DNA from: Paracoccaceae bacterium
GTDB taxonomy: Bacteria; Pseudomonadota; Alphaproteobacteria; Rhodobacterales; Rhodobacteraceae
DNA: 37,491 nt
Reading direction: 5' to 3'
NCBI GenBank assembly: GCA_029938175.1
Contig: JAPYON010000012.1
Location: 1-37,491 of the forward strand
Part shown: positions 28,698 through 31,585 of the stretch, piece by piece
How positions within the stretch are numbered: position 1 is the first letter of the stretch
Layout of the letters: every line of letters begins with the position of its first letter
The notes under the pieces: model-generated
What the model was told of the DNA's origin: nothing
What the model saw: the letters and a program-made list of their open reading frames with translations, nothing else
Databases searched by the model: none
Program-made: the position numbers and the translations under genes

Positions 28698-28769
28698 ATT
28701 GGTTAACGGATATTGGTTAATAGAAAGTTAATAGGTTAACTAAATCTTGACACTATGGGGAAAGGTTAA
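28698..28769 (+). promoter_or_regulatory. Cluster of TTAA boxes with a CtrA-type site upstream of yicC
   Basis: Five TTAA tetramers fall in 67 bases (28703, 28717, 28728, 28736, 28766). Those at 28717 and 28728 form TTAA-N7-TTAA, the CtrA consensus. ATTGGTTAA is repeated at 28698 and 28712 with a 14-base period. A TATAAT element lies at 28661-28666. The cluster fills the region between the PAS_5 remnant and yicC and suggests regulation by CtrA or another TTAA-binding protein. Confidence 0.5.
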
Positions 28770-29663: not shown

Positions 29664-30305
29664 ATGACCAACCGCCGTGGCCTGCTTATCATCCTTTCTT
29701 CGCCCTCGGGCGCGGGAAAATCTACCCTGTCGCGGCGTGTGCTTGAAGATGATCCGGATGTGATTTTCTCGGTTTCGGCCACCACGCGCGCGCCCCGTAA
29801 AGGCGAAGTTGACGGGCGGGAGTATTACTTCAAGTCTCGCGAAGAATTCGAGGCTCTGGTAGCCAATGACGGCATGCTTGAACATGCCGAGGTGTTCGGG
29901 AATTTCTACGGATCGCCATCGGCGCCAGTCGAGGCAGCGATTGAGGCGGGTAAAGACGTGCTGTTTGACGTTGATTGGCAAGGCGGCGAGCAAATCGGCA
30001 ATTCTACGCTAAAGGATGCAGTGGTTTCGATTTTCATTCTGCCGCCGTCTATTGTTGCGCTGGAATCGCGTTTGATGTCGCGCGGGCAGGACAGTGCTGA
30101 CGTCGTTGCAAGCCGAATGGCGCAGTCTCGATCTGAGATAAGCCATTGGGCGGAATATGATTACGTTTTGGTTAACGACGACCTTGAGCGCGCTGAATCC
30201 GACTTACGTGCTATCCTAACCGCCGAGCGCCTGCGCCTCGATCGCAATCCAGCTTTGGTGCCCTTCGTGGAATCCCTTAACGATGAATTCGAGGGACGGA
30301 AATGA
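29664..30305 (+). CDS. gmk: Guanylate kinase
   Basis: Gmk phosphorylates GMP to GDP. The 213-residue product has the P-loop PSGAGKST at 14-21, the GMP-binding segments [19 protein letters not shown] and [26 protein letters not shown], and the lid region [14 protein letters not shown]. It lies three bases after yicC, and its stop overlaps the next start (ATGA at 30302), so all three genes form one operon. Confidence 0.96.
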
Positions 30306-30835
30306 GCCATATTTATCAACTTGACGGCATCGCCCCGATTTTCCCCGAGGACGATGACTATTGGGTTGCCCCAACGGCGGTGCTGGTTGGGGACATTCTG
30401 ATGGAAAGCGGCAGCTCTATTTGGTTCGGGGCAGTGGCCCGTGGCGATAACGAGCGGATCACTATCGGGCGGGGCAGCAATGTTCAGGAAAATTCGGTTA
30501 TGCACACCGACATGGGTTATCCGTTAACGATTGGTAAAGACTGCACTATTGGTCATCGCGCCATGTTACATGGCTGCACGGTTGGCGACAACAGTTTGAT
30601 CGGCATGGGTGCCACGGTTCTGAACGGAGCGATCATCGGCAAGAATTGCCTAATCGGGGCAGGGGCATTGATCACCGAAGGAAAAGTTATTCCAGACGGC
30701 CGCCTAGTGATGGGCGCACCGGGCAAAGTCGTGCGGGAACTGGACGCCATGATGCTGGAAATGCTGCAACGTTCTGCAATCGGGTATCAGGAAAACATGC
30801 GTCGGTTCCGCGATGGCATGAAGCCTATAAAGTAA
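30302..30835 (+). CDS. Gamma-carbonic anhydrase family protein
   Basis: The 177-residue protein is a left-handed beta-helix trimer subunit of the gamma carbonic anhydrase/YrdA group. Hexapeptide repeats run through residues 25-130. The three zinc histidines are present as H68 (NSVMHTD), H85 and H90 ([10 protein letters not shown]), and [17 protein letters not shown] contains the conserved arginine/aspartate region. Many such proteins bind zinc but show little carbonic anhydrase activity, so the reaction is uncertain. It overlaps the gmk stop by four bases. The downstream region is a broken convergent gene. Confidence 0.92.
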
Positions 30836-30845
30836 TAGTTAACCT

Positions 30846-31390
30846 TTATTCGTCACTGGTCTTGGTTAATGCAACATCGTGGGGCTTTGACAGTTCACGA
30901 GCCAACTGTAACTGGATTTGGGCCGGAGTCGGATCATGTGAAGCATCCCACGCTTGGTTAACTGCAATCCGCGCTCCTTCAGCAATGAATCAAAATCCAT
31001 CAGATGTTGCGGATACAGTCACAACTCCACCAATGGGCAACGCGGTTTCAGCGCATAGCAAGACCAGATACAACAGCTTCATAGTATCGCGTGGTAAATC
31101 CAGCCCGTTCAATTGCCAATCAAGCTGTAATCGCGGTGTTTCGATCATGCTTTTGCAATCACTCCCGCTGCCGTTCCGCCAATCATGCCTTCCGCGAATT
31201 TCCCAAAACAGATGCGGAAAAATTGCAACTTGCCGTTCGCGCTAGCCACGCTATCGGCGATTAGTCCGACTTCTGGTATGGTTTCCGTCAGCTCGGCCAA
31301 AAATTCCACGCCATTGCCAATTGCACCTACCGGACTTATTAAATCATGGCAAATGCGCGAATACACCAACGCCTGTAAATTCGCGCTCAA
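30846..31390 (-). pseudogene. chpT: Histidine phosphotransferase ChpT, broken
   Basis: The minus-strand frame from the TTG at 31390 gives LQALVYSRICHDLISPVGAI, with the phospho-accepting histidine, then GLIADSVASANGKLQFFRIC, the signature of ChpT-type phosphotransferases (DUF2328). It stops at 31145. After a one-base shift in the AAAA run near 31152 another frame continues with RLQLDWQLNGLDLP, DTMKLLYLVLLCAETALPIG and GVVTVSATSDGF. It meets an in-frame TGA at 30990-30992 and goes on in the same frame (FIAEGARIAVNQAWDASHD) to TAA at 30846. No ribosome site precedes the TTG and an in-frame TGA lies just upstream, so the start may also be lost. ChpT passes phosphate from CckA to CtrA. Confidence 0.8.
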
Positions 31391-31411: not shown

Positions 31412-31585
31412 ATGATCCAGTTTCTGGAACCGGGTAATCTGGTTCGACATCCCAGCAAACCCGATTGGGGGTTGGGGAAAGTGCAGTCAGTTATAGCAGA
31501 CCGTATAACGGTCAATTTTGAACATGCGGGCAAAGTTGTAATCATCGGGTCGCGGGTCCTTCTTGAGCGGGTATACGAAAGATAA
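31412..31585 (+). CDS. Small DUF3553 domain protein
   Basis: This 57-residue protein reads MIQFLEPGNLVRHPSKPDWG, then LGKVQSVIADRITVNFEHAG and ends LLERVYER. It matches DUF3553, a small SH3-like/CarD-like beta domain also found at the end of some UvrD-type helicases. The start has a strong CGGAGGG ribosome site. It diverges from chpT with only 21 bases between the starts, so its promoter must lie inside the chpT 5' end. It is intact although its neighbour is broken. Its role is unknown; nucleic-acid or RNA polymerase binding is plausible from the fold. Confidence 0.85.
   Translation: MIQFLEPGNLVRHPSKPDWGLGKVQSVIADRITVNFEHAGKVVIIGSRVLLERVYER

Follow-up and report, generated by a model that had tools for sequence, protein, structure and literature searches.

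The chpT locus

The locus lies in the window, by which we mean the whole 37,491-nucleotide stretch of DNA analysed, on contig C197 of a draft assembly (genome G000; 2.13 Mb in 216 contigs, estimated 98.4% complete). The window contains a chpT relic between two open, conserved neighbours, and a second broken gene and a CtrA-type site lie in the same region:

30846..31390, minus strand: chpT relic (HPTransfase family), from the start-aligned TTG at 31390-31388 to a premature TAA; called from PF10090 (64.4 bits), reading frames and alignment with relatives
31148..31390, minus strand: first chpT piece, holding the SRICHDLISP phosphohistidine region; 61-70% identity to 10 ChpT copies of the genus
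31145..31157, minus strand: site of the frame change from the first piece to the second; frame reading and alignment with relatives
30849..31145, minus strand: second chpT piece, in a different frame; 31-46% identity to the same 10 copies
30990..30992, minus strand: in-frame TGA within the second piece; PF10090 match and frame reading
30846..30848, minus strand: further in-frame TAA, before the C-terminal end of relatives (about 30828); alignment with relatives
30302..30835, plus strand: gamma-carbonic-anhydrase-like (gamma-CA) gene, open, shared with relatives; named from an earlier annotation note and by eye
31412..31585, plus strand: DUF3553 gene, open, conserved neighbour; PF12073
27944..28605, minus strand: another broken gene, of the PAS_5 family and weakly similar to MopJ, divergent from yicC; orthologue matches change frame and stops lie inside
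28717..28731, no strand: TTAA-N7-TTAA site 56 bases ahead of yicC, in the stretch that separates yicC from the PAS_5 relic; motif count and comparison with relatives

PF10090 gave a single match in the assembly, at the chpT place, scoring well above the cut-off of 22.9 bits and with the TGA inside it. On the minus strand, one frame (31390-31145) reads LQALVYSRICHDLISPVGAIGNGVEF...GVIAKA and then stops. The remainder, IETPRLQLDW...CAETALPIGG...SATSDGF, is in another frame and is followed by the TGA and then by FIAEGARI.... The change of frame maps to GCAAAAGCATG or its immediate surroundings (about 31145-31157), and the run of A there has just four bases. After ...KTSDE, the TAA precedes RLTITL, which aligns to the C-terminal end of relatives. 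This copy is therefore not one open reading frame: it carries three frame-breaking lesions (frameshift, TGA and TAA) in about 545 bases, as called from the draft assembly sequence, and retains the phosphohistidine motif in its first piece.

The sequence-only reading of this DNA had already called chpT broken, with the phosphohistidine region and downstream ChpT blocks kept. The comparison with relatives strengthens that call, as both pieces align with their ChpT, the TGA is present in the assembly and the TAA is a third lesion that the reading lacked. The frameshift that it placed in an A run is likewise there. Its remark that the start has no ribosome site carries little weight: the codon aligned to the ATG of five relatives (G002, G003, G004, G008 and G012) is TTG, itself a permitted start, and a similar GGTG-type upstream stretch is found in several relatives with open genes.

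We compared the locus across a genus set of G000 and 12 other genomes (G001-G012). As the sequence-only reading had suggested checking, relatives keep an intact copy here: chpT is open in 10 of the 12, with a gamma-CA match adjoining in all 10. An eleventh copy, in G006, starts open and runs off the contig end, and G001 gave no match for this locus. Chance resemblance is excluded, because relatives have the same gamma-CA, chpT and DUF3553 neighbourhood and their ChpT aligns to both pieces. Several disabling lesions are thus found here together with open orthologues in relatives, the combination that marks a pseudogene. The intact ChpT of G003 aligns with the solved chains 4qpj, 4fmt and 4fpp, two of which are named only 'phosphotransferase'. 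This copy, the one that was scored, falls below the NCBIfam ChpT equivalog cut-offs (114 of 240 and 108 of 225 bits), in models whose names point to Brucella/Rhizobiales and to Caulobacter. More widely, PF10090 matched 86 of 101 genomes, G000 included (84 above cut-off), some of the weaker matches being histidine-kinase-like. One family relative that is 98% complete (G026) gave neither a ChpT nor a CtrA match, which may be a further loss or reflect misplacement of the genome.

The loss of chpT looks recent from these alignments. The identities of the two relic pieces to the 10 genus copies compare with 68-79% (first part) and 33-55% (second part) for the intact chpT of G011 against the other nine. 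Measured against G003, G000 and G011 score alike for yicC (73 and 73), gmk (88 and 87) and a GNAT gene (80 and 81); the chpT pieces score 69 and 46 in G000 and 74 and 54 in G011, and the control genes gamma-CA (79 and 87) and DUF3553 (81 and 85) are also lower in G000. Third codon positions of the first piece differ from relatives far more than second positions do, a bias that is less marked in the second piece. Relaxed selection on chpT is not proven, because this codon-position bias persists, the drop in identity is modest, and gamma-CA and DUF3553 drop about as much.

cckA, ctrA and related genes

The kinase of the same pathway is also missing. We searched G000 and the 12 other genus genomes with a CckA core query (E 1e-35) and found no match in G000, against matches of at least 52% identity in 9 of the 12. 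G002 (68% complete) gave a 39% match only, and G004 (71% complete) and G009 (88%) gave none. In G003, cckA encodes a protein with PAS, HisKA, HATPase and receiver domains and lies between sulfotransferase-like and rsmB-like genes, near recA-like and guaB-like genes (names by eye). Contig C10 of G000 has the same gene order (recA-like gene, truncated sulfotransferase-like piece, CckA N-terminal remnant, next genes), but the cckA slot measures 158 bases against 2.05 kb in G003, a deletion of about 1.9 kb. The remnant consists of 31 residues that match the CckA N terminus, a membrane segment (E 2e-10 in a 660-base search), and the slot holds none of the PAS, kinase, ATPase or receiver parts. The CckA hybrid kinase of a working relay is thus reduced to an N-terminal stub. 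The sulfotransferase-like and CckA pieces overlap by 8 bases, as a single deletion would leave. The loss is a deletion inside an assembled contig, with no assembly gap, although a misjoin on C10 may have produced the same arrangement. The sulfotransferase-like gene beside the scar (L250, about 1370-1650 of C10) is itself frameshifted, its 3' half gone at the deletion.

Among the 8 receiver and 10 HATPase matches in G000, several of them named by eye, we recognized no CtrA, CckA or hybrid kinase. L147 and L144, where a kinase and a receiver lie near each other, were considered as broken hybrid kinases and rejected: by eye, they read as separate NtrB/NtrC-like and DctB/DctD-like genes. The sequence-only reading had proposed that loss of chpT uncouples CtrA from CckA; because CckA is gone as well, no living CckA has been cut off from CtrA.

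A CtrA query at E 1e-40 found no match in G000 and matched 11 of the 12 other genus genomes, G002 being missed. The eight receivers of G000 read as DctD- and NtrC-like (both by eye) and NtrX-like proteins, PhoB, RegA/PrrA, two further OmpR-type proteins and one single-domain protein; none of those scored reaches the CtrA cut-off. The ctrA slot, however, falls between contigs C184 and C87. In G003 the stretch missing there holds ligA, ctrA and mnmA, and the DNA of that G003 stretch was not found in G000. The NAD-ligase family (ligA) has no match in G000 and is found in 11 of 14 control genomes. NAD-ligase is essential, and its absence marks the slot as an assembly gap. With ligA and mnmA missing from the same gap, we rejected the receiver list as a demonstration that ctrA is absent, and its absence from the genome is unproven. 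In G012 a DUF1153 gene, which we take to be SciP, adjoins ctrA. The distance from ctrA to cckA is about 29-32 kb in G003, G007, G010 and G012.

Two further findings bear on motility and CtrA. The G003 orthologue of the second relic in the window is a PAS_5 protein with a weak MopJ match (46 bits against a cut-off of 200). G003, G012 and G004 carry the complete orthologue and G007 and G009 one of nearly full length; the match extends only part of the way in G002 and G008, and the G011 stretch examined gave no match. In Caulobacter, MopJ is reported to promote CtrA re-accumulation (PMC4432633). Proteins of G003 (13 of 84 tried) and of G012 (13 of 80) matched the window over about 27.9-36.7 kb, the part in which broken genes could be recognized, and only chpT and the PAS_5 gene were split over frames. 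A search for flhA, the one flagellar family examined, found no match in G000, in an assembly of 216 contigs known to miss genes such as ligA. It matched 10 of the 12 other genus genomes, all but G002 and G007. G007 (99% complete) nevertheless keeps ctrA, cckA and an open chpT, so loss of the flagellum need not force loss of the relay, or not at once. DivK is reported to be absent in Rhodobacterales (PMC9430884), so its absence here means nothing.

TTAA-N7-TTAA sites

The Caulobacter CtrA consensus is quoted as TTAA-N7-TTAAC (PMC4046655). We counted TTAA-N7-TTAA, which is its own complement, so that both strands count the same sites. The CtrA-type sites that the sequence-only reading saw in the window are numerically real, with four sites (3983, 5726, 9390 and 28717) against 0.34 expected. 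Genome-wide, G000 has 149 sites and its reversed control 34, a ratio that none of the other 12 genus genomes reaches. The relay-bearing relatives G003 and G008 have 141 against 49 and 167 against 97, whereas the count is just 13-29 in G005, G007, G009, G010 and G011, in which ctrA is present, and in G012 it equals that of the control (95 against 95). The excess is therefore common to part of the genus only. It is also specific to the spacing: in a test over 295 kb, N7 gave 22 sites, whereas 19 other spacings averaged 3.9. Of the 256 tetramers, TTAA ranked first for recurrence at an 11-base period in samples of G000, G003 and G012. In sampled stretches of G000, TTAA-N17-TTAA was over-represented as well (12 against a mean near 4 at other spacings). 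A family relative outside the genus, G046, was an outlier with 106 sites against 5 for the control. A 50-kb E. coli stretch contained no N7 site, and scanning E. coli genomes with the window DNA found nothing.

One site is shared. A perfect site lies 54-56 bases before yicC in G000, G002, G003, G008 and G012 and 43 bases before it in G009; G004, G007 and G011 have none there. Placement of the sites in general, judged on a gene map made by simple longest-ORF tiling, is a different matter. Two of the four window sites are inside genes, as are 12 of 16 in 237 kb of G000 (window included) and 17 of 21 in 312 kb of G003. The intergenic share in G000 is 4 of 16 for N7 and 8 of 26 for eight other spacings; for other spacings in G003 it is 9 of 23. 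Promoter control is not what most sampled sites show. Because the sites are mostly intragenic, and intergenic no more often than other spacings, they are weak evidence for a working CtrA, and the site count loses its force as proof of a live one.

Retention of orthologous sites in G000 was 2 of 5, 2 of 2, 2 of 3 and 2 of 2, too small a sample to read. Between G003 and G012, N7 pairs were retained in 12 of 15 cases against 8 of 31 for other spacings (both directions added, and so not independent). CenR, considered as the reader of the motif, was set aside, as its published motif is TGA-N8-TGA (PMC9275681). An enriched motif that is mostly intragenic might mean that many CtrA sites lie within genes, or that the motif has a role across the chromosome.

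Probable decay of the CckA-ChpT-CtrA relay

The CckA-ChpT-CtrA relay is reported to be essential in Caulobacter (PMC2877005). In Rhodobacterales, by contrast, mutants of all three relay genes are described as viable, and the core target consists of flagellar genes (PMC12363192). The relay of Dinoroseobacter, Phaeobacter and Ruegeria KLH11 involves the same gene families as here; in G000, however, cckA is deleted, chpT is broken and ctrA was not located. We consider it likely that chpT is a genuine and probably young pseudogene, part of the decay of a motility and CtrA signalling module in one small-genome Rhodobacterales lineage. Decay of a single functional module would account for what is seen of the flagellum, CckA, ChpT and a MopJ-like regulator. 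In this order the core output of the relay is the flagellum. It may have been lost, perhaps first, and CckA and ChpT would then no longer have been selected for and would have decayed. Loss of the flagellum is thus perhaps the cause of the relay's decay. ChpT would do nothing now, with no working CckA left to feed it.

The lesions in chpT are probably real, because cckA is cut by a deletion elsewhere, the PAS_5 gene is broken and flhA was not found. A draft assembly in 216 contigs could carry sequencing or assembly errors in an otherwise intact chpT, but such errors would have to account for three separate lesions in so short a gene; moreover, the kinase of the same pathway was lost by a large deletion and not by a small indel, and the checked neighbours are open except for the PAS_5 gene. 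We regard such an error as improbable. Still harder to credit is a takeover of ChpT's place between CckA and CtrA by the second phosphotransferase for which the sequence-only reading allowed: the PF10090 search found no second ChpT/DUF2328 place in the assembly, and the deletion of CckA excludes a replacement with CckA as donor.

Two fates of CtrA are compatible with chpT being a young pseudogene in a decaying module. The entire relay may be gone, ctrA included, which we hold to be nearly an even chance: the CtrA query found nothing and both cckA and chpT are lost, but ctrA's slot falls in a gap of the assembly, and the site counts show no decay. Alternatively, and less probably, ctrA survives in the gap and acts on TTAA-N7-TTAA without CckA or ChpT, either unphosphorylated or with another phosphate donor. 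The gap is silent on ctrA, as it lacks ligA and mnmA too; the genus-highest site ratio and the spacing specificity would suit a surviving CtrA, and a published model for R. capsulatus assigns a role to the unphosphorylated protein (PMC6363796). On the other hand, sampled sites are intragenic no less often than other spacings, a recent loss could leave sites persisting, site retention in G000 comes from too small a sample, and several ctrA-bearing relatives have few sites, while G012 shows no excess. In its fullest form, which we think unlikely, CtrA would have outlived its phosphorelay, with ctrA in the unassembled ligA-mnmA stretch and about 150 sites in use, many of them intragenic, in an unphosphorylated or differently driven form and perhaps in a chromosome-wide rather than a promoter role.

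Decay of a motility and CtrA signalling module has partial parallels. In flagellum-less Caulobacteraceae, regulators including mopJ were lost convergently alongside the flagellum, much as is proposed here; the losses listed in the main text of that study comprise mopJ, cpdR, rcdA and others, not ctrA, cckA or chpT, whereas cckA and chpT decay in G000 (PMC12700997). Rickettsiales and Rhodospirillales have incomplete relays in which members are missing, as here (PMC2877005, PMC8116508). ChpT is reported as mostly undetected in them and, according to the authors, may have been missed by the search; in G000, relics of chpT and cckA are still in place. Literature searches of an open-licence library listed no report of a cckA deletion or a chpT pseudogene in Rhodobacterales. 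They did list a paper on streamlined two-component systems of Wolbachia (PMC4426382).

The locus offers a view of the textbook alphaproteobacterial relay in the middle of being dismantled, with its relics still standing, in an order whose relay works mainly for flagella. It provides a natural test of whether Rhodobacterales that lack a flagellum have a role for the CckA-ChpT arm that would justify its retention, and of whether CtrA can serve without that arm.
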